A stretch of DNA of 33,646 nucleotides, from NCBI GenBank assembly GCA_002733985.1, contig NVXP01000022.1:22450-56095 (forward strand), in the 5' to 3' direction. The notes under the pieces are model-generated. The model did not search any database. It had not been told where the DNA came from and worked only from the letters and a program-made list of their open reading frames with translations. Both the position numbers and the translations under genes were made by a program. The stretch is from Fluviicola sp. (GTDB lineage: Bacteria > Bacteroidota > Bacteroidia > Flavobacteriales_D > Crocinitomicaceae). Below are positions 1,013 through 33,548 of the stretch, piece by piece (positions within the stretch are counted from its first letter, which is position 1; each line of letters opens with the position of its first letter).

Positions 1013-1996
1013 ATGAAAAGAAGACTTTTAGTTTTTTCAACGCTTTTTATGCTTGCCTCGGGAGCTAGTTATGCTCAGCAAGATAAATTAATCACTCATT
1101 TTATCTTCGATAAGATGAGTTTTAATCCAGGAGCAACCGGTATTAATGACGGTTTTTGTGGGACATCTATTTATCGCAATCAATGGGATAAAGTGAATGG
1201 TGCACCAAATTCAGCTGTTTTGAATGTCGAAGGAGCGTTAGATCGCTGGGCACCGGTTGGTGTTGGTATTTCGTTTTATCATGACGCAATCGGATTTACT
1301 CGCCAAAACAATGTATTGTTGAACGGGTCTTACAAATTGAAAACAAACTACGGTACCTTAGGTATAGGACTTGGTCTTGGTATCATTAATGTTGGGATGA
1401 ATCCTGACTGGGTTGCACCAGTTACGAACAATGACCCTTCATTGCCTGTTGGTTTTGCTGATTTAAAATTTGATTTGAACGCTGGTCTTTACTGGAAAGG
1501 TTCTTCAGATTATTATGTAGGAATTTCATCTACTCATTTAACTGCACCTGTATTAGGTGATAGTTCTGGTGTGAATCCAGCAGGAGCTCCTGCAACTGTT
1601 ACGTATAACTCTGCTCGTCATTACTATGCGATGGGAGGTAAGACATTTAAAAATGCATTTGGCTCATATGGTCACTTAGATGCGAATGTTCTTCTTAGAA
1701 CTGATATGGTGAAAATGTCAGCGGATCTTAATTTACGATACATGTGGTTTGATAAAGCCTATGCAGGTTTAACTTACCGTACATCTGACGCTATAGCGAT
1801 CATGATTGGCGCTCGCCCTTTCTTAATAGTTAATCCCGGTACAGCAATGGATAATTTATTAATTGGATACTCTTACGACATTACAATTAATAAATTAGCT
1901 AGTGTTTCTCGTGGTTCCCATGAGATGTTGATTAAGTATTGTTATTACCTTCCACCTGTTCCGATTCAAAAATCGAAACATCCACGTTGGTTGTAA
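1013..1996 (+). CDS. PorP/SprF family type IX secretion system outer membrane protein
   Basis: This 327-residue protein begins with a clear Sec signal peptide (about residues 1-21, ending in SYAQ before QDK). The body alternates short beta strands rich in Gly, Tyr and aromatic residues, as in an outer membrane beta-barrel. The early segment with FNPGATG, followed by a Y-R-N-Q-W motif, is typical of the PorP/SprF family. Members are outer-membrane T9SS accessory barrels; SprF in Flavobacterium is needed to deliver the adhesin SprB, and PorP attaches to the periplasmic GldK/GldN-type ring. It lies 117 bp upstream of gldK on the same strand, the usual position for a PorP-like gene. Many genomes hold several family members, so SprF versus PorP cannot be decided. 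Confidence 0.88.
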   Translation: MKRRLLVFSTLFMLASGASYAQQDKLITHFIFDKMSFNPGATGINDGFCGTSIYRNQWDKVNGAPNSAVLNVEGALDRWAPVGVGISFYHDAIGFTRQNNVLLNGSYKLKTNYGTLGIGLGLGIINVGMNPDWVAPVTNNDPSLPVGFADLKFDLNAGLYWKGSSDYYVGISSTHLTAPVLGDSSGVNPAGAPATVTYNSARHYYAMGGKTFKNAFGSYGHLDANVLLRTDMVKMSADLNLRYMWFDKAYAGLTYRTSDAIAIMIGARPFLIVNPGTAMDNLLIGYSYDITINKLASVSRGSHEMLIKYCYYLPPVPIQKSKHPRWL

Positions 1997-2113
1997 AATT
2001 CATTTTTTATTAAATAATTGTAACCATTTCTAGGAAGGTTCCGTTATATCCAAGAATAAGATTGATCCTGTAAGTTGTTAATTGAGATATCCGGAAGATA
2101 AAAAAGAGGTAGA

Positions 2114-3661
2114 ATGAAGAAACTTTTGTTATTTGCTTTAGTTAGTGTAGTGTTGGCGTCATGTACGTCAAGGACTGGTCACTTAACAGGTTCTCAAGGT
2201 AGACGTGTCTACCACCCACAAATTCCATTGGGAATGGTGTATGTTCCTTCAGGAGCATTTCAGATGGGGGAGAACGATGGAGATGTACCATTTTTACATC
2301 AGACTCGACCGCGTACGGTTTCTGTTCAGGGTTTTTATATAGACCAAACAGAGATTTGTAACAATGAGTACCGTCAATTTGTGGATTGGGTGCGTGATTC
2401 AATAGCTCGTGAAAAAATCTACGAAGGTCTTGATGAGGATGAGGATGCTGAACGATTTATTAACTACAAAGATCGCTACTTCGATGAGGGAGCACTTGAG
2501 TATGTTGATTACGATGCATCAGATCGTCAACTAAACCGCGAGGTTTTTAACTTGAATTGGGATCGACGAATCGATTATTACGATGAAGACGTAGTTCCGT
2601 TGCTAGCAGATATGTATTATCCGCAGCCACAACGCTACTACAAACGTCGTGAAATTGATACACGTAAATTAATGTTCCGTTATTTCTGGATTGATTATGT
2701 TGAGGCTGCTCGTCGTGGTCGAATTAATATCACTCCGAATGGTTACGATAATCAAGGTAATAAGATTGTTGACGATCACCGTGAGTTGGAAACTCCTCCG
2801 CATCCGTTTACTGAAGAGCCTCAAGGGCAAGACCTCGACTTGAGTAATGGGATTAATAAAAAGGGACAAAACAACGGGATTCGTGGACATGCTAACCGTC
2901 AACGTTTCATCATTGATGAAATAATTAATGTTTACCCAGACACATTGTGTTGGGTACGTGACTTTACGTATTCATTCCATGATCCAATGACAAACATGTA
3001 TTTCTGGCATCCAGCGTACGATAACTACCCAGTAGTTGGTGTGACATGGGTACAGGCAAAAGCATTTTCTGTTTGGAGAACACAGCTTCTTAATTCATGG
3101 TTAGTATCAATGGGGGATTTATTTGTGAATGATTTCCGTTTGCCAACTGAGGCGGAGTGGGAAAGAGCTTCTCGTGGAGACTTGAATATGTCGCAATACC
3201 CATGGGGTGGACCTTATATCAGAAATGAGTCCGGTTGTTTCCTTGGAAACTTTAAGCCAATGCGTGGACGTTACTTTGAAGATGGAGGTTTCCATACTGT
3301 GAAAGTTTACTCGTACAATCCAAATGGATGGGGATTATACTGTATGGCAGGAAACGTTGCTGAGTGGTGTGAAACTGCTTATGACGAGTCGATGTACGAA
3401 TTCTCTCACGATTTGAATACAGAGTACCGTTACAATGCAATGGATTGGGATCCGCCATCGATGAAACGTAAAGTTATTCGAGGAGGTTCTTGGAAAGATA
3501 TTGGATACTACCTAAGAAATTCGACTAGAACGTATGAATACCAGGATACGGCGAAATGTTATGTAGGATACAGAAATGTAATGACACACCTTGGACGTGG
3601 AGGTAAGGATTTCACGAAAGAGGGAGGCGAGGAAATTCGAAGCGACATTCAACTTCGCTAG
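2114..3661 (+). CDS. gldK: GldK, T9SS ring lipoprotein
   Basis: GldK (PorK) is a lipoprotein that forms, with GldN (PorN), the large periplasmic ring under the outer membrane in the type IX secretion system. The 515-residue product has a lipoprotein signal with lipobox LASC (lipidated Cys17). The mature part is a formylglycine-generating-enzyme/sulfatase-modifying-factor-like fold: GMVYVPSGAFQMG near residue 40, DQTEICNNEYRQFV near 80, RLPTEAEWERA near 345, AGNVAEW near 415 and VIRGGSW near 455. The stretch between about residues 95 and 280 is an insertion rich in Asp, Arg and Tyr, usual for GldK. It heads the gldKLMN cluster, with a 50 bp A/C-rich, unstructured gap before gldL. Confidence 0.96.
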   Translation: MKKLLLFALVSVVLASCTSRTGHLTGSQGRRVYHPQIPLGMVYVPSGAFQMGENDGDVPFLHQTRPRTVSVQGFYIDQTEICNNEYRQFVDWVRDSIAREKIYEGLDEDEDAERFINYKDRYFDEGALEYVDYDASDRQLNREVFNLNWDRRIDYYDEDVVPLLADMYYPQPQRYYKRREIDTRKLMFRYFWIDYVEAARRGRINITPNGYDNQGNKIVDDHRELETPPHPFTEEPQGQDLDLSNGINKKGQNNGIRGHANRQRFIIDEIINVYPDTLCWVRDFTYSFHDPMTNMYFWHPAYDNYPVVGVTWVQAKAFSVWRTQLLNSWLVSMGDLFVNDFRLPTEAEWERASRGDLNMSQYPWGGPYIRNESGCFLGNFKPMRGRYFEDGGFHTVKVYSYNPNGWGLYCMAGNVAEWCETAYDESMYEFSHDLNTEYRYNAMDWDPPSMKRKVIRGGSWKDIGYYLRNSTRTYEYQDTAKCYVGYRNVMTHLGRGGKDFTKEGGEEIRSDIQLR

Positions 3662-3711
3662 AATAAACAACAACAACAAACAATAAATTAAACCTAAAAC
3701 AAGGAAAAACT

Positions 3712-4533
3712 ATGAAACCAGGAAGTAAAGGATGGAAAAAGTTTATGGCGAAGCTCTATGGAATTGGAGCAGCAGTCGTTATTATGGGAGCATTATTTAA
3801 AATTATGCACTGGCCATTCGCCGGACCTATGCTCGTTGTTGGTCTGAGTGCTGAGGCAGTGATTTTCATGTTCTCTGCATTTGAGCCGATTCATGAGGAT
3901 CCAAATTGGGAATTAGTTTACCCAGAATTAGCATTAGGTCATACAGATGATCTTGATCACGAAGCATTACCTGCTGCAGGTGGACGTCGTGGTGGAGGAG
4001 GTGGATCAGGAATTACTGATCAACTGGATAAAATGCTTGAAGAAGCAAAAATCGATGGTGAATTGCTTGAACGTCTTGGTGACGGAATGCGTGCATTAGG
4101 AGATAACGCTGCACAATTGAAAGGTGTTACTTCTGCAGCTGCTGCAACTGGTTCTTACGTTGATAGCTTACAAGCTGCATCTGATAAAGTGTCAAAACTT
4201 TCTGATGCATACGAAAGAGCATCTGTTTCTATCTCTGGAATGACTTCTTCTTCAGCTGAAGGTGAATCATTCGGTGAGCAAATGCAAAAAGTTTCTAAAA
4301 ACTTGGCAGCATTGAACAATGTGTACGAACTACAATTGAAAGGTTCTTCTGCTCATTTAGAATCAACTGAGAAGTTCCAAGGTCAAGTAACTGATATGAT
4401 GAAGAATCTTGCTGATTCAGCTGAAGATACTCGTCTGTACAAGGAAAATATGGCAATGTTGTCTAAGAACTTGACTGATTTGAATTCGGTTTATGGTAAC
4501 ATGTTGAAAGCGATGACAATTACCCGAGGATAA
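3712..4533 (+). CDS. gldL: GldL, T9SS/gliding motor inner-membrane subunit
   Basis: GldL (PorL) forms the pentameric inner-membrane stator that, with a GldM dimer, uses the proton gradient to drive secretion and gliding. The 273-residue product has two transmembrane helices (about residues 16-32 and 39-57) and a long cytoplasmic tail. Conserved polar residues sit in the helices: Lys30 and His33 at the end of helix 1, Glu48 in the middle of helix 2 and Glu58 at its end. By position Glu48 corresponds to the helix-2 glutamate (Glu49 in F. johnsoniae) proposed to carry protons. A Gly-rich linker (about residues 91-99) leads to a helical, Ser/Ala-rich tail likely to form coiled coils. The hairpin just downstream is listed separately. 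Confidence 0.96.
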   Translation: MKPGSKGWKKFMAKLYGIGAAVVIMGALFKIMHWPFAGPMLVVGLSAEAVIFMFSAFEPIHEDPNWELVYPELALGHTDDLDHEALPAAGGRRGGGGGSGITDQLDKMLEEAKIDGELLERLGDGMRALGDNAAQLKGVTSAAAATGSYVDSLQAASDKVSKLSDAYERASVSISGMTSSSAEGESFGEQMQKVSKNLAALNNVYELQLKGSSAHLESTEKFQGQVTDMMKNLADSAEDTRLYKENMAMLSKNLTDLNSVYGNMLKAMTITRG

Positions 4534-4541
4534 ATCTCTCG

Positions 4542-4565
4542 GATAAGTGTTACTTATCGTTTTTT
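4542..4565 (+). promoter_or_regulatory. Hairpin with T-run between gldL and gldM (possible attenuator)
   Basis: Nine bases after the gldL stop, GATAAGT pairs with ACTTATC around a GTT loop, followed by G and six T. A second short hairpin (CCGAG at 4524-4528 with CTCGG at 4538-4542) overlaps its foot and could compete with it. The structure resembles a weak intrinsic terminator placed inside the operon. It could let part of transcription stop after gldL, or protect the gldL mRNA end. The effect is inferred. Confidence 0.4.
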
Positions 4566-4609
4566 ATGAATTAACATGTAGTTATTAACCAAATGAAAAT
4601 TATTTAATC

Positions 4610-6358
4610 ATGGCAGGAGGAAAAGAAACCCCCAGACAAAAGATGATCGGGATGATGTACTTGGTACTCACCGCGCTTCTCGCCCTAAATGTATCAAAGT
4701 CTATTCTTGATGCCTTCGTGGCAATTGAGGAGAATATCCAAAAAGCAAACATTGTACAAGTTGATCGTGGTGACGGATTCATTGCTTCAGTAAATGAAGA
4801 GTTGCAAACGACACCAAAGGATGCCGAAAACAAATCAAAGCGTGAAAAGCTAACGTTTGTTTTGGATAGAATGAAACAAATTGATGTCATTTCAGGGAAA
4901 CTGATCAAGGAAATTGATGAAATTAAATCACATATCTTAACGGAGTCAGGTGAAGATATTTCTAAGGCAGTTGACAAGAATCACGAATTAATTTACTGGA
5001 AAAAGTACGACAAGAATAGTCAAGTACTACCAGCTCGAATGAATCTAAATGCTGTTCAAGCAAAGGATCAATACGATGTGCCAATGCACGAGATTATTGG
5101 TGAAGAGATCACAAATCCTACGGGATCTGGAATCAAGCTTTGGGATAACTTGAATAAATACCGTAAGGATATTGTTGGATTAGTCGGAACATATGATTGG
5201 GGAGGGAAACCATTCTCAGTAAATGTTAAGGACATCAATGCATTCAAAGACAACAAAGAATTGACTGCTAAGGTCAAGAAAATGGTAGAGGGAAGTAAGA
5301 CAAATCACATGGATGATGATAACGCCTTACAAGAACTTTACATGATGTTGACGAAAGAGGAAAAACGTGAAGTTCATGAAGTGAAAGGTGTTCACTGGAT
5401 TGGTGCTACGTTTGATCACTCACCGTTAGTTGCTGCTTTGGCATCATTGTCATCGTTGCAACAAGATGTATTATCTGCTCGAGCTTATGCTTTAGCACAC
5501 TGGAAGAGTAAAGTTTCTACTGGTGAATACAGCTTCAACAAAATTATGCCTTTGGCTTATGGACCTGCAGTTGCTAATGCTAACGACGAAGTCGAGCTGA
5601 AAGTAATGATGGCAGCCTTTGATTCGGATAACAACCCTGTTGTTACATCAACTCAAGGTTCTGTTGTATACCCTGCAGAAGGAGGTTATGCGTTGGTGAA
5701 AGTGAAAGCTGGAGGAACGACTATGACTGTTTCTGGTACAGTATCGATCAAAAACAAATCTGGTATTGAGAAGAAAGAAGATTGGACGCATGAAATTACA
5801 ATCATGAAGCCATCTGGTTCTATCGAACTACCTGAATTGAACGTATTATACCGTGGTTACCCAAACAAAGTTGATCCAACTGCGTCAGGTTACCCAACAA
5901 CGGTTCTTACAGGTTCTAACTGTAGCTTAAGCAAATCAGGATCTATTTATATTGCAACTCCTGGTAAAGGTAAAGAAGCGTACTTAACAGTATCTGGTAG
6001 AACAGTTGATGGTAAGACGGTTACCTTGAAAAAAGTTAAATACAGAGTTGTGAACTTACCAGATCCAGAATTATACTGGGGAGGTGTAGCGAGCGGAGGT
6101 AAAGCTTCAAGATCTCAAAAAGTTCTTTTCGCAAAATACCCACCTTCGATTCCTTTGAATGCTAAGTTCAGAATTATTAAATGGGAATGTCAAGTGCCTG
6201 GAGCACAAGGTAAGCCACCAGGAGGTCCTGGAGCTAACATTAGTGCAGCATCAAACTTGTTGCGCGCAGCGAAACCAGGAAGCCTTGTAAGTTTTATATG
6301 TACAGTAGTCGGTCCGGACGGTATTCAGCGTAAAAAAGCTGGAGCATTTAAAATTTAA
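4610..6358 (+). CDS. gldM: GldM, T9SS/gliding motor subunit spanning the periplasm
   Basis: GldM (PorM) has one N-terminal transmembrane helix that sits inside the GldL ring and a long periplasmic rod that carries motion to the GldK/GldN ring. In this 582-residue product the helix is about residues 11-30 (MIGMMYLVLTALLAL), preceded by the conserved KETPRQKM. The helical D1 domain follows and includes YMMLT at 244-248 and DVLSARAYALAHWKSK at 286-301. Beta-rich domains D2 and D3 run to about residue 400, and D4, which starts at about residue 401 with SGSIELPELNVLYRGYPN, ends the protein. It is longer than the roughly 515 residues I recall for other GldM/PorM proteins, mostly through loops. A shortened lipoprotein version of this protein is encoded at 27542-28720. 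Confidence 0.96.
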   Translation: MAGGKETPRQKMIGMMYLVLTALLALNVSKSILDAFVAIEENIQKANIVQVDRGDGFIASVNEELQTTPKDAENKSKREKLTFVLDRMKQIDVISGKLIKEIDEIKSHILTESGEDISKAVDKNHELIYWKKYDKNSQVLPARMNLNAVQAKDQYDVPMHEIIGEEITNPTGSGIKLWDNLNKYRKDIVGLVGTYDWGGKPFSVNVKDINAFKDNKELTAKVKKMVEGSKTNHMDDDNALQELYMMLTKEEKREVHEVKGVHWIGATFDHSPLVAALASLSSLQQDVLSARAYALAHWKSKVSTGEYSFNKIMPLAYGPAVANANDEVELKVMMAAFDSDNNPVVTSTQGSVVYPAEGGYALVKVKAGGTTMTVSGTVSIKNKSGIEKKEDWTHEITIMKPSGSIELPELNVLYRGYPNKVDPTASGYPTTVLTGSNCSLSKSGSIYIATPGKGKEAYLTVSGRTVDGKTVTLKKVKYRVVNLPDPELYWGGVASGGKASRSQKVLFAKYPPSIPLNAKFRIIKWECQVPGAQGKPPGGPGANISAASNLLRAAKPGSLVSFICTVVGPDGIQRKKAGAFKI

Positions 6359-6376
6359 TATTAAAAATTGAGGATT

Positions 6377-7399
6377 ATGAAAAGTCTATTCATGAGTGCA
6401 GTTGGAGTCTTCCTATTCGTAGGGACGACGTTAGGCCAGATTGAGGGAATCAATGGTGGGCCAGTAAATGTTCCAACGGAAGGAATTATCGATGGTGTGT
6501 ACATTCAAGAGCACATTCCAACTAAACGAATGATTCCATATACGAATGTTCGGGAGGCAGATGCAATCTGGAGCAGACGCGTGTGGCAATACATAGACTT
6601 GCGTGAGAAAATCAATCATCCATTGTATTACCCACTTGATGATATTACTCCCCTAGAATGGGTGCGTAACTCATCTCGTTGGAGTCTTTGGACGATCATC
6701 AGACAACATGTTATGAATGCTGATTTACGAGTTTTCTCTCCGTTTAATCCTATCAGCTATGGTCTAGGTGCTTGGGACGGTGATCAATTGAAGTACCCGA
6801 TCGACCCAGAGCAAGGAATGAATTTCTTTACTGATACTGCATTTAGAGAAGTAATGACAACATACCTTGGTCGGCTTGGACCTCAGAGTGATATACCATT
6901 GGTGGATGATTATGGTGATAACATCATTATTACTTTACCTGATGGCTCACAAACATTTGAGTATGAGCCGCGCGATACGACTTGGTTTCAATCATCTGAC
7001 ATCGTTCAATACAGATTGAAAGAGGATTGGTTCCTAGATAAACAGCGTTCAGTTTTGGATCAACGTATTATAGCAATTGCGCCAGTTCGTTACAAAGTTT
7101 CTTTGGATGCAAATGGAAACAAAACGATCGCTGGTTTACAAGAGATGTTTTGGTTGTACTTCCCGCATTGTCGTTTTGTATTCAATAATTACTTTGTTTA
7201 CAACGATAGAAATGATGCACAATGGATGAGCTTCGATGACCTTTTCTGGAAACGTCGCTTTAACTCTGTAATCTATAAGGAGAGTAATGTTCACGATCGT
7301 GAGATTGAAACATACCGATCTGGTTTAGATGCTTTGCATGAGTCTGATAAAATCAAAAATGAAATTAGAAACATCGAACATGATATCTGGTCTTTCTAA
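6377..7399 (+). CDS. gldN: GldN, T9SS ring protein
   Basis: GldN (PorN) is the periplasmic partner of GldK in the T9SS ring and receives the D4 end of GldM. The product has a signal peptide (MKSLFMSAVGVFLFVGTTLG, cleaved before QIEG) and the family pattern: HIPTKRMIPYTNVREADAIW, then SRWSLWTII near residue 100, then GDQLKYPID and a C-terminal block with FWLYFPHCR, NDAQWMSFDDLFWKRRF. I chose the ATG at 6377 over an in-frame TTG nine bases upstream because it gives a clean signal peptide. It follows gldM by 18 bp and a strong terminator ends the operon. A second copy lies at 7526-8521. Confidence 0.95.
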   Translation: MKSLFMSAVGVFLFVGTTLGQIEGINGGPVNVPTEGIIDGVYIQEHIPTKRMIPYTNVREADAIWSRRVWQYIDLREKINHPLYYPLDDITPLEWVRNSSRWSLWTIIRQHVMNADLRVFSPFNPISYGLGAWDGDQLKYPIDPEQGMNFFTDTAFREVMTTYLGRLGPQSDIPLVDDYGDNIIITLPDGSQTFEYEPRDTTWFQSSDIVQYRLKEDWFLDKQRSVLDQRIIAIAPVRYKVSLDANGNKTIAGLQEMFWLYFPHCRFVFNNYFVYNDRNDAQWMSFDDLFWKRRFNSVIYKESNVHDREIETYRSGLDALHESDKIKNEIRNIEHDIWSF

Positions 7400-7414
7400 T
7401 CATTAAATACTTTG

Positions 7415-7452
7415 AAAATCCCCTTTGCGTAATCGTAAAGGGGATTTTTTTT
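7415..7452 (+). terminator. Intrinsic terminator of the gldKLMN operon
   Basis: A 15-bp stem (7415-7429 with 7434-7448, one G-T pair) closes a TAAT loop. A run of eight T begins within the 3' arm and ends at 7452. It lies 16 bp after the gldN stop codon and separates gldN from its paralogue. Confidence 0.9.
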
Positions 7453-7525
7453 GCTTAGAATTGAGGTTCGGAGTAACCTTTTCTTGTTCGCTGGTTATGT
7501 TCTTAAATAACACAAACCTAGAACG

Positions 7526-8521
7526 ATGAATTACTTTCTCTCCATTTTCTTGATTCTACCACTACTGAGTTCAGCTCAATATGGACCCATTCCTGAAGCG
7601 AACGGTGTCCGAAATGGTTTATGGTCAACCGAGCATATCCCAACAAAGAGGCTCATTCAATATCCTCCGGTTTCAGAACGTGATGTACTCTGGAGTAAAC
7701 GTATTTGGCGCGCAATTGATATGCGAGAGAAAATCAACCAGCCAATGTATTATCCACTGGATGAAGTAACGTCCTTAGAATGGATTACAAATGCCTCACG
7801 GTGGAGTCTTTGGACCATCATTCGAAAGCATGTAATGAATGGAGATTTGAGGGTGTTTTCTCCGTACAACCCAAACAGCTACGGACTAGGAGCAGTGGAT
7901 GGCGATCAATTGAAATATCCTATCGATCCTCTTCCTGGAGAGAACTATTACACCGATGCTAATTTTAGATCGGACATTCTTTATTATTTGGGACGTCTAG
8001 GACCAGAAAGTGATATTCCTTTAGTGGATGAATACGGCGAACCAATGCTGGAGTTAGATGAGAATGGTAATGAAAGCTTCGTATATGAAGCTCCTGATAC
8101 CGTCTGGTACAATTCCAAAGATATAGTAGAATACCGTTTAAAAGAAGATTGGTTCTTTGATAAACAACGCGGAGAGATGGATGTACGCATCATTGCGATT
8201 GCACCTGTTGTTTATGACACGGAACTTGACATCAATGGAAATGAACAAATTACAGGAAAGAAAGAACTCTTTTGGCTCTATTTTCCCCATTGTCGCTATG
8301 TCTTCAATAACTATTTCACCTATAACGATAAGAACGATACACAATGGATGAGTTTCGATGACTTATTCTGGAAACGTAGATTCAGTAGTTACATCTATAA
8401 AGAGAGCAACAGTTTTGATCGTCCTATTGACAGTTATGCACATGGTGCCGAAGCGCTTTATGAATCGGAAAGAATTTCAAATGAAATACGCACCTTCGAA
8501 CACGACTTGTGGTCCTTTTAG
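7526..8521 (+). CDS. GldN/GldO-like paralogue
   Basis: This 331-residue protein repeats the GldN pattern along its whole length: a signal peptide (residues 1-17, before QYGPI), EHIPTKRLIQYPPVSERDVLW, SRWSLWTIIRKHVMN, GDQLKYPID, LGRLGP, KDIVEYRLKEDWF, LFWLYFPHCR and QWMSFDDLFWKRRF. It is clearly a duplicate of the gene just upstream, with differences spread evenly, so it is not a recent copy. In Flavobacterium johnsoniae the neighbouring pair gldN and gldO is partly redundant in secretion and gliding, and this may be the same arrangement. Here, however, a strong terminator lies between the two genes, so the second copy needs its own promoter and may be expressed differently. It ends 9 bp from the convergent stop codon of the next gene, leaving no room for a terminator. 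Confidence 0.92.
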   Translation: MNYFLSIFLILPLLSSAQYGPIPEANGVRNGLWSTEHIPTKRLIQYPPVSERDVLWSKRIWRAIDMREKINQPMYYPLDEVTSLEWITNASRWSLWTIIRKHVMNGDLRVFSPYNPNSYGLGAVDGDQLKYPIDPLPGENYYTDANFRSDILYYLGRLGPESDIPLVDEYGEPMLELDENGNESFVYEAPDTVWYNSKDIVEYRLKEDWFFDKQRGEMDVRIIAIAPVVYDTELDINGNEQITGKKELFWLYFPHCRYVFNNYFTYNDKNDTQWMSFDDLFWKRRFSSYIYKESNSFDRPIDSYAHGAEALYESERISNEIRTFEHDLWSF

Positions 8522-20825: not shown

Positions 20826-21674
20826 ATGGGCTTGACCGCAGAACAATTAAAAGCAGTAAAAACGAGGAGTGATCTAATTGCTATTGCAAAAGAGAACAAC
20901 ATTAAAGTTTCGAAAACGCTATCAAAATTAAGATATGAAGCTGAGCTCGCGATGTTGCAAGCTGAATTTGTGAACCTGCAAAAATGGATTGCACAAAAGA
21001 AAATGAGGCTTGCAATATTGTTTGAAGGAAGAGACGCAGCGGGAAAAGGCGGTTCAATAAAACGATTTAAAGAGCACTTGAACCCAAGATCGTCAAGAGC
21101 GGTTGCTTTATCGAAGCCTACAGAAGTTGAGAATGGACAATGGTACTTTAGACGATACATAAAAGTATTGCCCAACCCCGGAGAGATCGTATTGTTTGAT
21201 CGAAGTTGGTACAATCGAGCAGTAGTTGAGCCAGTAATGGGGTTTTGCACAGATGATCAATACGATCAGTTCATAAAGCAAGTTCCAGAATTTGAGCATT
21301 TGCTGTATGAGGACAATATGAAAGTGATCAAGTTTTGGTTCTCGATTTCTAAAAAAGAACAAAAAAAGCGCTTCGATTCCAGGTTGAATAACCCATTGAA
21401 GGAGTGGAAATATAGTCCAGTAGATATGAAAGGACAAGAATTGTGGGATCAATACACGCACTATAAGGAAGAAATGTTCAGTAAAACGCACACGAATTTC
21501 AGCCCTTGGATTATTGTTAAAACGAATGATAAAAAGCAAGCAAGGCTCGAAAGTATGAGGTACGTATTGTCGCAGTTTGATTACGAAGGAAAGGGAGATT
21601 CGGAAGTAGAACTTACGCCAGATCCCAATGTGATCATGAGATTTCATAGAAGTTCAGTCCAAATTGACATTTAA
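20826..21674 (+). CDS. Polyphosphate kinase 2 (PPK2) family protein, first copy
   Basis: PPK2 enzymes move phosphate between polyphosphate and nucleotides. The 282-residue product has the full core: Walker A GRDAAGKGG at 68-76, a lid-side segment with KPTEVENGQWYFRRYI, Walker B FDRSWYNRA around 124-132 (Asp125, Arg126) and the C-terminal SPWIIVKTNDKKQARLES. An N-terminal helical hairpin of about 60 residues precedes it. The class (ADP- or AMP-phosphorylating) cannot be settled by eye. It is followed after 10 bp by a second PPK2 gene, so the two probably act together in nucleotide/polyphosphate balance. Confidence 0.93.
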   Translation: MGLTAEQLKAVKTRSDLIAIAKENNIKVSKTLSKLRYEAELAMLQAEFVNLQKWIAQKKMRLAILFEGRDAAGKGGSIKRFKEHLNPRSSRAVALSKPTEVENGQWYFRRYIKVLPNPGEIVLFDRSWYNRAVVEPVMGFCTDDQYDQFIKQVPEFEHLLYEDNMKVIKFWFSISKKEQKKRFDSRLNNPLKEWKYSPVDMKGQELWDQYTHYKEEMFSKTHTNFSPWIIVKTNDKKQARLESMRYVLSQFDYEGKGDSEVELTPDPNVIMRFHRSSVQIDI

Positions 21675-21684
21675 GAAAAGTAAA

Positions 21685-22458
21685 ATGAACGATATAAATT
21701 TAGATGCTGAAGATCTTAAGTTATTGAACTCCAAAATTGGCTTGCATGCTCTTTTGAGAAATAAGAAAGTGGACTTGTCGAAGGCGTTGAATGAGGTGAA
21801 ATACATTACTGAACTTAAAAAAAACCAAGAAGAGTTAATCAAGCTTCAAAAATGGCTCATCAAGGAAAATAAGAAAATAGTGATCCTTTTCGAAGGACAA
21901 GATGCGGCAGGAAAGGGTGGAGCAATTCGGAGAATTACCCAGTACATAAATCCACGGCACTTTAATATCGTCGCCTTGGATATTCCAACGGAAGATGAAC
22001 GAAATCAATGGTTTTTTCAACGTTACATCAATCACTTACCAAGGCCAGGAGAAATCGTGTTCTTTGATAGAAGTTGGTACAATAGAGCCGTTGTGGAACC
22101 GGTAAATGATTTCTGTACGCAAAAGGAATATGAAATATTTATGTCTCAGGTCAACAACTTTGAACAAATGCTCGTTCAATCGGAGACCTATTTAATCAAG
22201 ATTTATTTCTCCATTTCAAAAGAAGAACAAGCGAAACGATTTAAGGAGATCAAGAACAATCCATTAAAGCGTTGGAAAATTACTCCTGTTGATGAAAAAG
22301 CCCAAGAATTGTGGGATGAGTATACATCTTACAAAAAGAAAATGTTTGAGGTAACAACAACGGAACATGCTCCTTGGAAAATTATTGAAGCCAATAAGAA
22401 ATCCAGTGCTCGCTTGGAAGCAATTCAATATATTTTGGATACTATTCCGTATGAATAG
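21685..22458 (+). CDS. Polyphosphate kinase 2 (PPK2) family protein, second copy
   Basis: The 257-residue product is homologous to the first copy along its length: GQDAAGKGG at 71-79 (Gln where the first has Arg), PTEDERNQWFFQRYI, FDRSWYNRAVVEPV near 127-140 (Asp128, Arg129), and APWKIIEANKKSSARLEA. The ATG at 21685 is used because an upstream TTG overlaps the previous stop. The two copies differ in many places, so the duplication is old. If they belong to different PPK2 classes, together they could drive AMP to ADP to ATP from polyphosphate; this is inference. Confidence 0.93.
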   Translation: MNDINLDAEDLKLLNSKIGLHALLRNKKVDLSKALNEVKYITELKKNQEELIKLQKWLIKENKKIVILFEGQDAAGKGGAIRRITQYINPRHFNIVALDIPTEDERNQWFFQRYINHLPRPGEIVFFDRSWYNRAVVEPVNDFCTQKEYEIFMSQVNNFEQMLVQSETYLIKIYFSISKEEQAKRFKEIKNNPLKRWKITPVDEKAQELWDEYTSYKKKMFEVTTTEHAPWKIIEANKKSSARLEAIQYILDTIPYE

Positions 22459-23814: not shown

Positions 23815-25116
23815 TTAGAATACATTCAAATTGTTCTTGATTTTTTCCTTCAGATCATTTCTTAATTGTGCTCGCTCTGCATAGTCGTTCCAAGATTTTA
23901 TGGTAACGTTAATTTCTTCAATAATTTTCGCTCCTTTTTTAATGTTGTTGTCCTTAGCTAGCGTCATTAAATCCTCTTTGCTGATTCCAAGTCGCTTTCC
24001 ATTAACACTTAGCGTTTGTTTGTTTACCCAATGATTACTTGGGTCGAAAGAAAAACATAAGTCATATGCCGGAGCTAGTTTCCAATTTTCACCCTTTTTC
24101 AGCATGAAAGAGAAATTCTTCGTGTGATCATCGTAGTTGGTTGCCAATACATTAAAGACCATTCTTCGAAACATTTGTTCAGCCTCAGGATAGGTTAAAC
24201 GTAGCAATCGCATGGTTTGAAATAACTGTTCATAACTGTAACCGTACATGTCGTTAAAGTCATAGTGTTGCAGACCACAAAATGATTGGATGTGATGCTT
24301 AACGTTTTGCTCTCGGTCAAAACGTTTGGTCATGAAATGAGCTCGTCCATTTTCTTCTAAGAGTTTACATTCATTGATTTCAATTCCGCAGTCAAGTGCC
24401 ATCAGATAGTAGGCGTATTCTACGCGCCCCCAACCGGAACTTTCCCCAAATTGTGCTCCACTAACACCATCTAATTTGAGTAGCCAATGCTCAAAGCCTT
24501 TGGGGACATTACCTTGTCCAGATCTTACTTCCTGAGTGGTGGGATTATATCCAATGACAGCTTTGGGACGTGCACCACCAGCAGAGGTTCCAATTTTTAA
24601 AATCTCCATCATTGCTTTCTCCTCGTCCTTGTTTAGATCGGCTGTAAATGCTTGTCGCTCATTGAGCATTTTTTTTGCCGCTTCAACCAAACTATCTAGT
24701 TCCAGTGAGAAGCTGTGTGTTCCCGTTTTGATTTGGCTTGGTTCAAACTCGATAGCACCCATTCCTCGTGTGCCTATAAAGCATAATTTCTCGACAGGGT
24801 TCATGCCATTTTCTGATCGACCTCGTTGTGCCAGCCATGCATTGATCAACTTATTCCCATACTTATCAGGCAAAGCATCAGACAACATTCCTGGTAAGCC
24901 CTTGAATGTGTCTTCAGTTTCATTTCGTCCTTTTCGCAATTCAGGAAAACTATATATCCGTGAACCTTGAGCGATGGGCATTTTAAGTGGTGATAAATCC
25001 CATCCCTTTTCAATGAATTTTGTGTCGTATTGGAAATACCCTAATTGATTCGATTCATCCCAACGGATGGCTCCTGCCAATTCTCCCCATATTTTTACTT
25101 CGGCTACATCTACCAT
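23815..25116 (-). CDS. hipA: HipA family serine/threonine kinase toxin
   Basis: HipA toxins phosphorylate a cellular target (glutamyl-tRNA synthetase in E. coli) and stop growth; the antitoxin HipB neutralises them. The 433-residue product contains the N-terminal domain (couple_hipA) plus the kinase domain in one chain. Visible motifs are GTSAGGARPKA at 176-186 (nucleotide loop with the possible autophosphorylation Ser), FMTKRFDR at 261-268, the catalytic-loop NYDDHTKN at 327-334 and LAPAYDL at about 347-353. All key acidic residues are present, so it looks active. It overlaps the antitoxin gene by 7 bp. The target in this organism is not known. Confidence 0.94.
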   Translation of the reverse strand: MVDVAEVKIWGELAGAIRWDESNQLGYFQYDTKFIEKGWDLSPLKMPIAQGSRIYSFPELRKGRNETEDTFKGLPGMLSDALPDKYGNKLINAWLAQRGRSENGMNPVEKLCFIGTRGMGAIEFEPSQIKTGTHSFSLELDSLVEAAKKMLNERQAFTADLNKDEEKAMMEILKIGTSAGGARPKAVIGYNPTTQEVRSGQGNVPKGFEHWLLKLDGVSGAQFGESSGWGRVEYAYYLMALDCGIEINECKLLEENGRAHFMTKRFDREQNVKHHIQSFCGLQHYDFNDMYGYSYEQLFQTMRLLRLTYPEAEQMFRRMVFNVLATNYDDHTKNFSFMLKKGENWKLAPAYDLCFSFDPSNHWVNKQTLSVNGKRLGISKEDLMTLAKDNNIKKGAKIIEEINVTIKSWNDYAERAQLRNDLKEKIKNNLNVF

Positions 25117-25463
25117 CCTAAATCTTCTTGTTTGCGATCACTAACGTGCTGCGGTGTGGCTTTTTTTCGTTGTTTTTTTTTGAGCTTTGCGTATTCGATT
25201 GGACTTATTTGTTCTTGAATGTTAAATATATCCATGACATAAAGTAGATCGAGCACTCTTAATACCTGAATAAAGCTATCCATTCGTACTTTTTCTCCTC
25301 TTTCGAGTAGGCTTAAGGTCGAACGACTTATTCCTGCTGAGGTCGCAACTTGACTTTGCGATTTATTTTGATTTAGTCGATGTGATTGGATAAATTTCCC
25401 AATGGTTTCCATGATTGATTTATCGGACATCGATTCCCATTTTATGTATGACTTATCATTCAT
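25110..25463 (-). CDS. hipB: HipB-like HTH antitoxin / autorepressor
   Basis: The 117-residue protein has an Xre-type helix-turn-helix at about residues 24-60 (SQSQVATSAGISRSTLSLLERGE) and a C-terminal tail rich in Lys/Gln ending in DLGW, likely the segment that contacts HipA. It should repress its own operon. The start at 25463 keeps a W-x-x-MSD segment (residues 9-14) that I recall from close relatives; alternatives are ATGs at 25430 and 25412. With the longer start, operator 3 overlaps the first six codons. It overlaps hipA by 7 bp. Three matching operators and a promoter-like pair are listed below. Confidence 0.92.
   Translation of the reverse strand: MNDKSYIKWESMSDKSIMETIGKFIQSHRLNQNKSQSQVATSAGISRSTLSLLERGEKVRMDSFIQVLRVLDLLYVMDIFNIQEQISPIEYAKLKKKQRKKATPQHVSDRKQEDLGW
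25445..25462 (-). promoter_or_regulatory. hipBA operator 3 (over the hipB start codon)
   Basis: TGTATGACTTATCATTCA matches operator 2 except at one base and overlaps the hipB start codon (25461-25463). Binding here would block translation initiation or transcription elongation. Confidence 0.65.
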
Positions 25464-25948: not shown

Positions 25949-26308
25949 ATGAATTTTAACATAATCGGATATAGCATTTACATCGTAGTTATCATCTACA
26001 TAACCATCTTCATCGGTAAGAAATTTCATTCAAACGGTCGGGTTTTCATACATGAACTCTTTACGAATCACGATTTGTGCGAGGCGGTAAACAATATTCT
26101 CTTGGTCGCCTATTATCTCTTGAATATTGGAAATGCAATTCTCATGATGAGAACATGGCCTCAAATTCAATCCTTCGCCTCATTGATTGAAGCCATTTGT
26201 ACCAACATTGGACAAATCATCTTGCTTCTGGCTGTAATACACTATGTAAATATAATACTGCTCTTGGTGAGCAGAACTCAAATAAATAAAGTAACAATTA
26301 AACACTAG
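25949..26308 (+). CDS. Small integral membrane protein, first of a paralogous pair
   Basis: The 119-residue product has three to four hydrophobic helices: about residues 4-22, 47-65 and 86-108. A polar loop between the first two contains GKKFHSNGRVFIHELF and DLCEAVNNILL, followed by YYLLNIGNAILMM. The second gene encodes the same layout (ARNLFRNSEIFMLEIF, then ATNKLFEIGFYLLNIGYVLLIL), so the two are paralogues and may form a heteromer. I use the ATG at 25949, preceded by GAGAG, rather than a TTG at 25925 that lies within the inverted repeat. I do not recognise the family's function. Confidence 0.8.
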   Translation: MNFNIIGYSIYIVVIIYITIFIGKKFHSNGRVFIHELFTNHDLCEAVNNILLVAYYLLNIGNAILMMRTWPQIQSFASLIEAICTNIGQIILLLAVIHYVNIILLLVSRTQINKVTIKH

Positions 26309-26312
26309 TATC

Positions 26313-26711
26313 ATGGAAAACTCAATGATTATCATCGCGTATGCTACCTACTTACCGATAGCTATTTTGCTCACTTATTATGTCGCTCGAAACCTTTTTC
26401 GGAATTCAGAAATATTCATGCTTGAAATTTTCCGAGGGAAAAAGGACATTGCCCTTGCGACAAACAAACTATTCGAGATCGGCTTTTATTTGTTGAACAT
26501 TGGCTATGTCTTGTTGATTTTAAAAATGACGTACATTAATAATTATCAAGACGTAATAGAGCGAGTGTCTTTCAAATTAGGTGGCGTTTCTATTTACCTT
26601 GGAATACTGCTCTTTTTCAATTTATACTTGTTGTTTCGCGGAAAAAAAGCGTCTAAACAAAATGGTGAAAAAGTAATGGAGGTGCCTAATTCTGACTACC
26701 GTCCAGTATAA
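26313..26711 (+). CDS. Small integral membrane protein, second of a paralogous pair
   Basis: The 132-residue protein has helices at about residues 5-25, 54-72 and 88-109. It repeats the layout of its upstream neighbour, including the segment FYLLNIGYVLLIL, and has an additional charged C-terminal tail (RGKKASKQNGEKVMEVPNS) that is probably cytoplasmic. It starts 4 bp after the stop of the first gene, so the two form an operon, closed by a strong terminator. Function unknown; a role as a small transport, sensor or stator-like pair is possible but unproven. Confidence 0.82.
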   Translation: MENSMIIIAYATYLPIAILLTYYVARNLFRNSEIFMLEIFRGKKDIALATNKLFEIGFYLLNIGYVLLILKMTYINNYQDVIERVSFKLGGVSIYLGILLFFNLYLLFRGKKASKQNGEKVMEVPNSDYRPV

Positions 26712-26742
26712 GCAGAATTGCCTTCGTATCAAGATTTAATAG

Positions 26743-26791
26743 GGAACACCTCCAAACAGATAGTAAACTGTTTGGAGGTGTTCCTTTTTTT
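26743..26791 (+). terminator. Strong intrinsic terminator after the membrane pair
   Basis: A perfect 17-bp stem (26743-26759 with 26768-26784) closes an eight-base loop and is followed by seven T. Confidence 0.92.
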
Positions 26792-26868
26792 GTTTGTAAG
26801 GATTCGGCTAAAATGACGTGCGCCATTACCTGTGATTAAGGTTTGCCAAAAGTATGCTGCTAGAAGAT

Positions 26869-27369
26869 CTATTTCACCTCTCTTGAGTTTGAAAGTGCTT
26901 CGTTAAGTAGTTCAATGGCTCCTTGCTCGTATATCGATTCCACAATTTGAATGTCATCACCTTGTAATTCTCGGATTAACGTTTCGTATTGTTCTAAAGT
27001 CCACCCAGCAGTCTCACTGTTACCTCCTGGTATTTGACGTTTTGAAGCGCTATATCTACATGCCCCTGGAGCAAAGTATATCACGGACCACTTTCTTGAT
27101 TTGAGTTTCGCAAGGAAGTCGTCATCGCTTGTTGTTGGAATGTATTCCGCATTCCCAGTTAATGGAGGAACGATTTCGGAAAATTGTAGTGATAGCTGTG
27201 GATCACAACCACGTGCTAGGATGCTTTTTTTTGAGTTGTCTACTGAAGTAGAGTCTATTTCTTGTGTTGTATTCATATCCGTTTTTTTTTGACCTGTTTG
27301 ACTGTGACAAGACATAACAACCAATAATGTTGCTGTCATCACAAAGTGTTTTGCTTTATTTAATCGCAT
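26869..27369 (-). CDS. Hypothetical lipoprotein with a conserved cysteine-rich motif
   Basis: The 166-residue product has a lipoprotein-type signal with Cys21 after LLVVMS, a Ser/Thr/Asp-rich linker, then a compact domain (about 50-166). It contains RGCDPQL, WSVIYFAPGACRYSASKRQIPGG and WTLEQYETLIRELQGDDIQIVES. The phrase VIYFAPGAC resembles the start of a thioredoxin-like strand and loop, but with only one Cys and no CxxC, so I give no function. The gene has its own promoter-like box 26 bp upstream. Confidence 0.8.
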   Translation of the reverse strand: MRLNKAKHFVMTATLLVVMSCHSQTGQKKTDMNTTQEIDSTSVDNSKKSILARGCDPQLSLQFSEIVPPLTGNAEYIPTTSDDDFLAKLKSRKWSVIYFAPGACRYSASKRQIPGGNSETAGWTLEQYETLIRELQGDDIQIVESIYEQGAIELLNEALSNSREVK

Positions 27370-27386
27370 TGTTGATTAACCTTAAT

Positions 27387-27402
27387 GTGTAGTACAAAGG
27401 TT
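27387..27402 (-). promoter_or_regulatory. Promoter-like box upstream of the lipoprotein gene
   Basis: On the minus strand AACCTTTG followed by TACTACAC resembles the -7 box; 13 bases are identical to 15248-15260 upstream of the SRPBCC gene, with almost the same spacing to the start codon. Confidence 0.35.
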
Positions 27403-27541
27403 GTCAAATCACACTTTTCTTGAAAGGTCAAAAAGGGATAAAGGATGGTGAAAATTGGAGGGTTTTATACCTGAAAATTGGATAGAATGTTGATGTTCTT
27501 AAATGCGTGTTAAGTGTTAGGTATTCTGCGTTTCAAGCACA

Positions 27542-28720
27542 TTATTTTTCAAGCACATTTACTGACCATTCCCAGTTATATGTCTTTTCTAGGCCTGACA
27601 TAGTTTTAAGTCCCACAGTGCCTCGATACGTCTGAAGACCTGTACTTTCTGGTGATATCGTAATAATCCCTAGTCCTTCTTCATAGTGAATTACACCTGA
27701 ACCATCAATAGTAACTTTTGGGCTGTTGTACGAGTCATACGCTGCTACTATTACTGTAATATTAATAGGATTACCTTGGATTACCGTTGATGGTCCAGTA
27801 GCCACGGGTAATATTTCATCAAATCTATAACAGCAATGCCCTATTTTTGATTTCCAATGCGCAAGCGCTAATCTTCTTGCCGATAATACATCATATTGAA
27901 AGGAAGTAAGTGCAGATAAAGCTTCAATAATCGATGTGTTTTCAAAAGTGCTTTTTATCCAATGGTTTCCGCCGTCTTTACTGCTTTCAAGGGTTAACAT
28001 CATGTACAGGTCAATTAATACCTGTCGATCGTCTATTATATTAGCCTTTGATCCGTCTATCATTAATTCAACTTTCGATCTTAAATCTTTCGCTGAGCTA
28101 AACTTGTCGACGTTACTAATCTCTATTTTAAACTTCTGTTTCCCCCAATTATAACTTCCAGTGTGCTCAATTATTTTTTTTCTAAATAGAAGAAGAGTAT
28201 TCCAAAGATTTAAACTTTTTTCAGTTAATGCACCATCAGAATCGAGCATTACCTTGTTAGATATAGTTCTCCCTTTATTATTAATCGCACTGAGATTAAA
28301 CTTGACAGGTTGGGCGCTTTTCCTTGATTCTAATTTTCCCCATAGAATTGAATTATCATCACCCTGCTTTACTTTTTTTAAATCTTCGTTGGATTGTACC
28401 AAAAGTTCGTATTTGATTTCATCAACCAACGCAACAAGGATGTTAGAATAATTTTCAATACTATCCATCTTGCTTAGAAGATATTCTACTTTTTGGAGCT
28501 TTATTCTAGAGTCATCATTTCGTCTTGTTGATTCTATATTCCAATTGACTTCCTCATAATAACCTTGACCAATATCAAATTGAGTCAAACTGGCATCATA
28601 GACATCGCTTTCTAATTTTGCCATCCGCTTCAAAGTAATCTCGTTTTCTGATTTAGTCGAAGTACACCCTACGATAATTCCGATTATTAGTATGTAAGTG
28701 TAAATCAACTGTTTTTTCAT
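27542..28720 (-). CDS. GldM-like lipoprotein lacking the membrane helix and D4 domain
   Basis: The 392-residue product is clearly a diverged relative of GldM (4610-6358). Shared blocks include LWNTLLLFRKKIIEHTGSYNWG (GldM LWDNLNKYRKDIVGLVGTYDWGG), DLYMMLT at 237-243 (GldM 242-248), and DVLSARRLALAHWKSK at 277-292 (GldM 286-301). Two later blocks also match: VIVAAYDSYNSPKVT, and GTVGLKTMSGLEKTYNWEWSVNV (GldM GTVSIKNKSGIEKKEDWTHEI). Instead of the N-terminal transmembrane helix it has a lipoprotein signal ending IVGC (Cys19). It stops where D4 begins in GldM (about residue 400). It thus keeps D1-D3 and cannot insert in the GldL ring or, probably, contact the GldN ring. It lies 53 bp downstream of a VF530 gene. 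Confidence 0.9.
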   Translation of the reverse strand: MKKQLIYTYILIIGIIVGCTSTKSENEITLKRMAKLESDVYDASLTQFDIGQGYYEEVNWNIESTRRNDDSRIKLQKVEYLLSKMDSIENYSNILVALVDEIKYELLVQSNEDLKKVKQGDDNSILWGKLESRKSAQPVKFNLSAINNKGRTISNKVMLDSDGALTEKSLNLWNTLLLFRKKIIEHTGSYNWGKQKFKIEISNVDKFSSAKDLRSKVELMIDGSKANIIDDRQVLIDLYMMLTLESSKDGGNHWIKSTFENTSIIEALSALTSFQYDVLSARRLALAHWKSKIGHCCYRFDEILPVATGPSTVIQGNPINITVIVAAYDSYNSPKVTIDGSGVIHYEEGLGIITISPESTGLQTYRGTVGLKTMSGLEKTYNWEWSVNVLEK

Positions 28721-28740
28721 AGATGAGTTTTATTTGAACA

Positions 28741-28761
28741 TAACGTTTTCGCTAAACTGCG
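28741..28761. repeat. Short repeated motif, copy A
   Basis: Starts TAACGTTTT, then GCTAAA and CTGCG. A near copy with two extra bases lies at 32863-32885. It is placed between the VF530 gene and the GldM-like gene. Confidence 0.4.
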
Positions 28762-28773
28762 TTTTAAAGTAGT

Positions 28774-29142
28774 TCAGGTTTTGTCATCAGCTTTTTTATT
28801 TTTTTGTCCTTTTGGATCTATTCCTTTTTCCAACATCCTTATATAAATATCCTCAACATGCTCTCGAGCCCAATCCATTTTTCTTAAAAATTTCAAGCTT
28901 ACTTTCATTGTAGGGTTGCGCTTGAAACAAAGAATATTAACTTCGTCTGCCAGGTATTTCCAACCATAATGTTCCACCAGACTTTCTAATAGATCGGCTA
29001 GTTTCACCCCATGCAAGGGATGATCGAGTTGTTTTTGGGTAGCTTGTCTCCTAATTTTTTTAGCAGGTGTTTTCTCTTCCTGACCATCCGTCGTATTAGG
29101 TTTGTCAGTGGGCTTGTTCTCGTGATTGTTTTCTGTGTCCAT
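28774..29142 (-). CDS. VF530 family DNA-binding protein
   Basis: The 122-residue protein has a polar, charged N-terminal extension (about 1-38) and a VF530 (DUF2132) domain with [60 protein letters not shown] in outline. Proteins of this family are small and bind double-stranded DNA; the biological role is unsettled. It has no signal peptide. The gene is 53 bp upstream of the GldM-like lipoprotein gene on the same strand and may share its transcript, though a functional link is not evident. Confidence 0.9.
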
Positions 29143-29359
29143 TGTTGGCGTTATATTTAATTCCCTGTTTCAGCATTGCTAATAACATCAGAATATGTAC
29201 GATAGAGTACATGTCCCAATAATTCCATCTGATTTCCGACAATAAACGTTTACCAACGACAATCCTCGGGAAAGTTAGAATCCAAAATACACAATATTCC
29301 AGAAATAATTAAAGGGATAAAATGAATTATGCTCCAAGAGCAGGTAAAGCACTACGCTT

Positions 29360-29737
29360 CTAAGAAAGTTTATACTTCTCTTCTAAAATCGAAATAATTT
29401 CAGTCTCGTCAAGGTTTTCCTCGGCTGATTTCAAGCGATGGTATTCCTGTTGAACATATACCGCTAATACTGTCTCTGTCCAGTCAATTGAGTTACCAGA
29501 AGCGTACTCTTGGACGATACTTTTGAACTGTTCAAGATACTTATCCTCAGTACCTTTTTTTGTGAATAATTGAAGTGTCCATTTTGAAACATTCTTCATC
29601 TCAATACCTTCAGTACCATATTTTCCTATTCTCCACTTAATCGTCTTTCCTAAACTGTGAAGTGGGATTCTATATGAAAAATCCATGTTTTCAATGGAAA
29701 TATGGAGAAGGTCATCTTTAACCGAGTGCTTTATCAT
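29360..29737 (-). CDS. Hypothetical cytoplasmic protein
   Basis: I do not recognise this 125-residue protein. It has no signal peptide or membrane helix. The first 60 residues look like a small beta-rich domain (LHISIENMDFSYRIPLHSLG), and the rest is helical and acidic, ending in ETEIISILEEKYKLS. It lies alone between gene-free stretches of about 220 and 240 bp. A TATCTTTG box on the minus strand at 29882-29889 fits a -7 element, with a long leader of some 140 bases. Confidence 0.65.
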   Translation of the reverse strand: MIKHSVKDDLLHISIENMDFSYRIPLHSLGKTIKWRIGKYGTEGIEMKNVSKWTLQLFTKKGTEDKYLEQFKSIVQEYASGNSIDWTETVLAVYVQQEYHRLKSAEENLDETEIISILEEKYKLS

Positions 29738-32996: not shown

Positions 32997-33548
32997 TTAT
33001 TCATTTACAGATATAAAAGTTTCTACTTCTGCATTATCTCCATCATAATATTTTTTTCCGTGAATAGTAAAGTCAGCTTTATATGTTCGGGCTAGGTTCA
33101 GTTCATTATTACCCCATATTTCCATCCAAGTAGTAACAACCGCTTCTGGCATTGTGCCTTTTGAAACAAATTTTTGATATTCTGATTTTTCAATGGTTAT
33201 TCCAACAAAACCTTTGGGAATATTTTCTAACGAACTTACAGGCAATCCAATAGTTGTAGTGTATGCTCCATTGAAGTCGGTTTCATAATCTGTATAAACG
33301 GCATAAATATTATCATTTAATTTGTTCGGGATTTTTTCTTGAATTTTTTCATTCCAAAATTTCTCCCATATTGCTTCTATGTCTTTGGCAGACTGTCCAT
33401 TTTCATTAGTTGTTCTTATGGAAATTCCGATTACTTTAAATTCTTGGATAATTTGATTGTTCATAGTTTTGGCTTTGTTTGTCTGCACTTGAGCTTTGCA
33501 AGAGAATAGTATAGATGCAAAAAGAATGTAAATGAGAAAGTTTTTCAT
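32997..33548 (-). CDS. GyrI-like/effector-binding domain lipoprotein
   Basis: The 183-residue product has a lipoprotein signal ending LFSC (Cys17). From about residue 33 it follows the GyrI-like small-molecule-binding fold: KVIGISIRTTNENG, DIEAIWEKFWNE, YAVYTDYETDFNGAYTTTIGLPV, FVGITIEKSEYQKFVSKG and VVTTWMEIW. This domain is normally part of cytoplasmic AraC-type regulators or stands alone in the cytoplasm, so the lipoprotein form is unusual. An internal ATG at codon 29 would give a signal-less version. It may bind cationic or hydrophobic compounds in the envelope. Confidence 0.85.
   Translation of the reverse strand: MKNFLIYILFASILFSCKAQVQTNKAKTMNNQIIQEFKVIGISIRTTNENGQSAKDIEAIWEKFWNEKIQEKIPNKLNDNIYAVYTDYETDFNGAYTTTIGLPVSSLENIPKGFVGITIEKSEYQKFVSKGTMPEAVVTTWMEIWGNNELNLARTYKADFTIHGKKYYDGDNAEVETFISVNE

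Follow-up and report, generated by a model that had tools for sequence, protein, structure and literature searches.

The window, by which we mean the entire stretch of 33,646 nucleotides that was analysed, carries on its forward strand a porP/sprF-gldK-gldL-gldM-gldN-gldN operon (1013..8521), assigned by NCBIfam models scoring over their cut-offs and made up of porP/sprF (1013-1996), gldK (2114-3661), gldL (3712-4533), gldM (4610..6358) and two tandem gldN genes (6368-7399 and 7526-8521, both over the TIGR03523 cut-off). GldM of this operon is of full length (582 residues) and matches TIGR03517 with 196.3 bits (cut-off 180). On the opposite strand, 19 kb away, lies a real and intact gene (27542..28720) for a short protein of 392 residues, a lipoprotein with only the D1 and D2 domains of GldM, for which the GldM of the operon is the nearest full-length paralogue in the genome. 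An earlier note on this DNA had described the gene as not next to the gld operon, which is narrowly true, although the operon is found in the same window. A gene for a VF530 DNA-binding protein sits 53 bp upstream on the same strand, and a scan for promoters and terminators gave no signal above shuffled sequences. The same genome contains a second short lipoprotein of 395 residues (contig C6) and a second full-length GldM of 584 residues (contig C42, L007:4388-6142, forward strand); the frames listed around the latter include no gldK, gldL or gldN. GldJ is encoded on contig C171 (509.7 bits, cut-off 458.2) and so, together with the gld genes, gliding-type parts are present in this organism.

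In the alignment with its own GldM, the motor helix is replaced in the short protein by a signal peptide (residues 1-19; 28664..28720, reverse strand) ending in the lipobox IVGC, as the earlier note had read it, with Cys19, the predicted site of lipidation, fitting the canonical pattern [LVI][ASTVI][GAS]C. A missed N-terminal helix or a split-off D4, which that note had named as grounds for refutation, is not seen beside the gene. An in-frame TAA is found four codons 5' of the ATG, and tblastn over 26000-29500, taking residues 1-60 and D3-D4 of the own GldM as queries, detected no remnant of the N-terminal helix or of D3-D4, which together rule out both a missed helix and a split-off D3-D4 at the gene. 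A match to 25 residues of D4 at 29606-29680 (E 5.7) is no better than expected by chance.

Pfam places GldM_1st at residues 211-287 (27.3 bits, cut-off 25) and GldM_2nd at residues 298-384 (38 bits, cut-off 24.4), with no match to GldM_3rd or GldM_4th at E-values up to 1, and a sequence search matched PorM (7cmg) with an E-value of 1.4e-6. The most conserved helix of the family pointed out in the earlier note, DVLSARRLALAHWKSK, is indeed present at residues 277-292. Identity to the own full-length GldM is 33-34% (33% over D1-D2) and the TIGR03517 score is 45.5 bits, below the equivalog cut-off of 180 which the own GldM passes. The C-terminus of the short protein coincides in the alignment with the point where the own GldM continues from D2 into D3. 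The GldM_4th model is insensitive here, with no match reported in the own full-length GldM either, and therefore the absence of D4 was decided by length and alignment.

Predicted structure and conserved residues

An AlphaFold2 model of the mature protein (374 residues, 38-row alignment, mean pLDDT 84.8, pTM 0.71; the structure alignment took in 36 of 54 loci and two window proteins) consists of a helical D1 (residues 20-297; 27830..28663, reverse strand) and a beta D2 (residues 298-390; 27551..27829, reverse strand), with the last strand ending at residue 372 of 374 and the full chain at residue 392. The model is poor at the D1-D2 junction, where pLDDT falls below 50 (residues 295-302). Foldseek returned five PDB matches at E-values up to 0.001, all of them PorM or GldM. 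Superposition in VIA-align gave Z 19.6 for PorM 7cmg (rmsd 4.4, 245 aligned, chain residues 32-313), Z 15.9 for GldM 6ey4 (rmsd 8.0, 256 aligned, as far as residue 321), Z 17.3 for GldM 7sb2 and Z 17.6-18.1 for four GldLM/PorLM entries, in these last over D1. The boundaries given for GldM in PMC5790014 are 32-232 for D1, 233-320 for D2, 321-405 for D3 and 406-513 for D4. Pfam, the model, the superposition and this published D2 range thus agree on the domain content: the short protein is GldM-derived D1-D2 only, with a lipoprotein-type signal for the motor helix and with D3-D4 absent. The architecture of D1 to D3 claimed earlier has to be abandoned, being ruled out by Pfam, by the alignment with the own GldM and by the superposition, as D3 is missing too and the chain stops at the D2/D3 boundary. 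Of the related claim that the chain ends where D4 starts, the absence of D4 stands, but the end is reached already at D2/D3, since the model superposes to PorM residue 313.

The pattern of residues kept and lost is uneven along the chain. Near-invariant columns (with 90% identity or more among 53 full-length rows) were counted in 66 full-length and 13 short rows, three more distant rows being omitted. The control was a clade of 13 second copies of full length, with 46-50% identity to the nearest of the 53 rows. The short copies keep 0.28 of these residues in alpha1, 0.65 in alpha2, 0.30 in region 112-165, 0.52 in alpha3, 0.55 in 190-252, 0.51 in alpha5 and 0.69 in D2, against 0.97, 0.83, 0.78, 0.75, 0.59, 0.86 and 0.87, respectively, in the control. 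Alpha1, the first helix of D1 (residues 21-64; 28529..28660, reverse strand), has lost most of them, and the copy in the window retains 3 of 13. The short copy of L021, with a divergence like that of the control (48%), keeps 5/13 in alpha1, 10/14 in 112-165, 18/22 in alpha5 and 22/27 in D2, while the corresponding values for that of G203 (69%) are 5/13, 10/14, 14/22 and 20/27. Alpha1 is the most loosened part in these least diverged copies, and in others 112-165 and alpha5 are loosened too. This helix adjoins the lost motor helix and, according to PMC5790014, packs two D1 domains together in GldM, and we read the loss of its residues as the protein having left the motor. The pairing with GldM envisaged in the earlier note is disfavoured, as far as the D1 dimer interface goes, by the same numbers, with 28-30% of near-invariant alpha1 residues kept compared to 97% in second copies.

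Two adjacent cysteines, 296 and 297 (27830..27835, reverse strand), sit at the D1-D2 junction. Cysteines in this stretch are found in 6/13 short copies against 0/66 full-length rows, to which we attach little weight because the six form three pairs of relatives, cysteine is generally more frequent in short copies (1-5 versus an average of 0.7) and the model is of low quality in this area.

Distribution, ancestry and selection

The search of Bacteroidota genomes for the same architecture, proposed in the earlier note, revealed at least 13 D1-D2 short copies in at least 11 genomes of one family, the Crocinitomicaceae, and no D1-D2 lipoproteins outside it among the matches listed. Copies were counted from matches with frames under about 430 residues and by reading of the sequences; a locus search with the single protein as query gave no relative. 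The genome of the window (G000) and G003 have two copies each, and G004, G008, G018, G021, G076, G170, G115, G162 and G203 have one, so that by genus at least 8 of 34, at least 2 of 14 and at least 1 of 61 genomes carry a short copy. A full-length GldM is found for each of the 11 among the matches listed. Short GldM frames in G035, G178, G545, G530 and G214 were rejected as contig ends, that in G282 because the match stops 155 bases before the contig end, and those in G464 and G508 because GldM is split there over two frames; also left out of the count were G307, G232, G221, G196 (<400 bases from the contig start), G542 and L176 to L178.

In 8 of the 13 copies analysed with Pfam, GldM_1st was over its cut-off in six, GldM_2nd in five and GldM_3rd or GldM_4th in none, with the other copies assigned by the A1 profile. 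A lipobox-like cysteine is found in 11/13. A pattern test on 12 copies identified ten in which the signal ends in G, A or S followed by cysteine, four of which, including the one in the window, have the strict lipobox; G004 and G170 have no lipobox-like cysteine. The copy of G021 shows the same cysteine by reading, with the signal and the body of the protein in different frames (L042:7240-7330, forward strand), which represents either an assembly error or a real break.

Trees of the D1-D2 region indicate how these copies arose. The first tree, from which four pieces of frame-broken GldM and then 20 of 97 rows, as near-duplicates, had been dropped, joined all 13 with a support of 88 in the absence of G203 GldM, and this grouping broke up once that protein was added. 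In the resulting tree of 82 regions (three partial order-level rows omitted, eight added; quick method, SH-aLRT), the short protein of G203 is sister to its own GldM with support 100 and 70% identity, nine short copies including that of the window group with support 99, and those of G018, G021 and G076 lie on a very long branch beside the GldM of G021 and G076. Across the family, the second copies of full-length GldM branch together as a separate clade. A single clade of all 13 short copies is rejected (p-AU 1.6e-132), so one origin for all is excluded as a candidate. A single clade of the 12 without G203 is not rejected (p-AU 0.485), and hence we claim two origins and not three: under the tree model used, emergence of the short form at least twice is supported. 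In G203, as its alignment with the own GldM shows, a lipobox signal replaces the helix and the stop follows directly after D2.

Codon counts (NG86) gave pN < pS in all eight pairs compared, with pN/pS of 0.28-0.61, ratios which are rough since synonymous sites are near saturation in most pairs. The short protein of G203 and its own GldM differ by dS 1.18 and dN 0.24, and the G162-G115 pair by dS 2.33 and dN 0.37. Values of pS and pN are 0.78 and 0.22 for G018-G076, 0.78 and 0.26 for G021-G076, 0.77 and 0.26 for G018-G021, 0.75 and 0.41 for the window copy and that of G008, and 0.76 and 0.46 for the window copy and its own GldM, with 0.62 and 0.19 for full-length GldM from the window and G008 as a control. 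These counts point to selection against amino-acid change in the short copies.

Neighbouring genes and outer-membrane barrels

In G018, G021 and G076, a PorP/SprF-family gene lies upstream of the short gene on the same strand, with gaps of 47, 47 and 52 bp measured to the ATG of the signal. The barrels score 100.5, 82.9 and 74.6 bits against TIGR03519, where the cut-off of 90.55 leaves two of the three below it, and further barrel genes are found nearby in G021 (146) and G076 (148). SprF is tied to the gliding track by a Cys-X-Cys tail (Liu et al. 2025, PMC12635249), and no Cys-X-Cys is present in the last 45 residues of these three barrels. As far as gene order and sequence go, this suggests that the lipid-anchored GldM piece supplies the track link for tail-less barrels. 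The association concerns 3/13 copies from one lineage. Downstream, G021 and G076 have a gene for a Tricorn-like protease, and G018 a cut frame with TolB-like propeller matches. Other copies neighbour LytTR two-component genes, SDR enzymes, an HxlR regulator or DUF6855; an SDR-type gene is found beside three of them (G008, G115 and G162), with the best family model for G008 differing from that of the other two. Apart from the PorP lineage and the SDR-type gene, no neighbour is widely common among the copies.

The window itself contains several other genes of note. At 19284-20555 (forward strand) there is a likely type IX secretion substrate, with the C-terminal sorting domain Por_Secre_tail at 40.9 bits, followed by two overlapping tandem genes for PPK2 (polyphosphate kinase 2) at 20826-22458 (forward strand), a HipAB-type pair of a HipA-like protein and a helix-turn-helix partner at 23815-25463 (reverse strand), and, at 32997-33548 (reverse strand), a Cass2/GyrI-like effector-binding domain in an unusual location behind what looks by eye like a lipoprotein signal.

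Possible roles outside the motor

The short protein lacks what defines GldM as a motor arm, yet it derives from GldM. With GldM/PorM (TIGR03517), the arm of type IX secretion and gliding, it shares D1 and D2 by profile, predicted fold and ancestry, while it differs in having no motor helix, D3 or D4, in its lipoprotein signal, in the loss of alpha1 residues and in its position outside the operon. Without the helix and with alpha1 changed it cannot sit in the GldL ring, and without D4, which contacts PorN according to PMC12421860, it cannot push the GldK/GldN ring or the track; it would therefore not be a motor subunit. GldK and GldJ, the outer-membrane lipoproteins of the ring and the track, have a formylglycine-enzyme-like fold (PMC12421860) and are unrelated to GldM. 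The earlier note knew of no description of such a protein, and we found none of a lipidated or D1-D2 GldM in the open-licence papers searched, most subscription papers lying outside this search. The literature examined describes GldM solely as an entire arm that starts in the inner membrane and extends to the ring or track. The occurrence of a lipid-anchored D1-D2 with the same boundaries in at least two origins thus implies a separate use for this half, apart from the motor.

We tentatively propose, giving it a little under an even chance, that the short protein is a recurrently evolved accessory lipoprotein which has left the motor to serve as scaffold or adaptor, with the outer membrane as its probable site. 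After its predicted lipidation it would be carried to the outer membrane, where general lipoprotein sorting would place it, and hang N-terminus-up in the periplasm, inverted with respect to GldM. In the GldM dimer two strands are exchanged between the D2 domains, and the short protein probably still dimerises via D2. Its role would then be that of a stationary scaffold or an adaptor, and in one lineage at least it would serve alongside PorP/SprF-family barrels that have no cysteine tail. The periplasmic face is suggested by the residues after the cysteine in the window copy, TSTKSE at +2 to +7 (by eye), with no export motif of the K-(D/E)2, SDDDD or SDDFE type described in PMC5080379, motifs which may not be those of this family. 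If this is so, the protein offers a defined target for studies of the outer-membrane side of gliding and type IX secretion, their coupling or their regulation, especially in the PorP/SprF lineage. Judged by its sequences, the short GldM found in certain marine and freshwater bacteria has the look of a functional accessory component that is undescribed.

What else could the protein do? The D1-D2 fold might have been re-used for a task that has nothing to do with gliding or type IX secretion, such as envelope stress or service to another partner, possibly at the cell surface in some species. The few neighbours common to the copies (VF530, LytTR, SDR, HxlR, DUF6855) would fit such a task, and the acidic ASDEDT after the cysteine in G018 resembles export motifs of PMC5080379, but the linkage to PorP/SprF in three genomes, the presence of a full-length GldM for every short-copy genome among the matches listed and the TSTKSE of the window copy speak against it, and we regard this as unlikely, if with an appreciable chance. 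Rather less probable, in our opinion, is a brake or clutch, in which the lipoprotein pairs with GldM by D2 (and D1) to give an arm with one D4 that cannot step along the GldN ring, or else competes for a partner of D1-D2. In a published model PorM contacts PorN through a single D4 at any moment (PMC12421860), the D2 core is the best-kept part of the short proteins and the G203 copy shares 70% identity with the GldM of that genome. D2-mediated pairing with GldM is possible; alpha1, the packing helix of D1, is nevertheless what was lost most, in G203 too (5/13 kept), a parallel mixed dimer would require the lipoprotein to be in the inner membrane, and the window copy is just 33-34% identical to its own GldM.

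A distinctly improbable variant would make the protein a client of the track, with an outer-membrane D1-D2 that either is bound through Cys296-Cys297 to the invariant track cysteine in GldK or connects the track with tail-less barrels of the PorP/SprF family; if true, a discarded piece of the motor arm would have become cargo or coupling of the machine that the motor drives. Decay, with the short genes as truncated, dying GldM duplicates, could account for their patchy presence, their fast evolution and the frame difference between signal and body in G021. Since 12/13 frames are intact, a signal peptide has been newly acquired, copies of separate origin are cut at the same domain boundary and pN < pS holds in all eight pairs (most near saturation at synonymous sites), we consider it very improbable indeed, and the alternative of a lone decaying copy raised in the earlier note falls with at least 13 copies, at least two origins and the excess of pS in every pair compared.

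Other families, too, have GldM D1 in proteins that are not the standard arm, namely in GldL_N + GldM_1st fusions and in secreted proteins or lipoproteins with D1 only, neither of which appears closely related to the short protein, as the fusions keep a GldL-like membrane part and the D1-only proteins have no D2. A GldL_N-type membrane part and GldM D1 are combined in one chain, by Pfam, at L180:6110-7360 and L183:6587-7639 (both reverse strand), and L184:3898-4983 (forward strand) resembles these by N-terminal likeness alone; L183 and L184 adjoin a PorP/SprF-like gene (by eye), and the three are possibly one-chain motor-like proteins. The D1-only class includes L181:5939-6514 (reverse strand), of 191 residues with a lipobox-like LISC and GldM D1 as its only match (34.2 bits, cut-off 25), from a genome in the same class but of a different family, while L185:6836-7753 (reverse strand), of 305 residues with a signal-like start, matches GldM D1 with 89.7 bits and has no other GldM domain reported.
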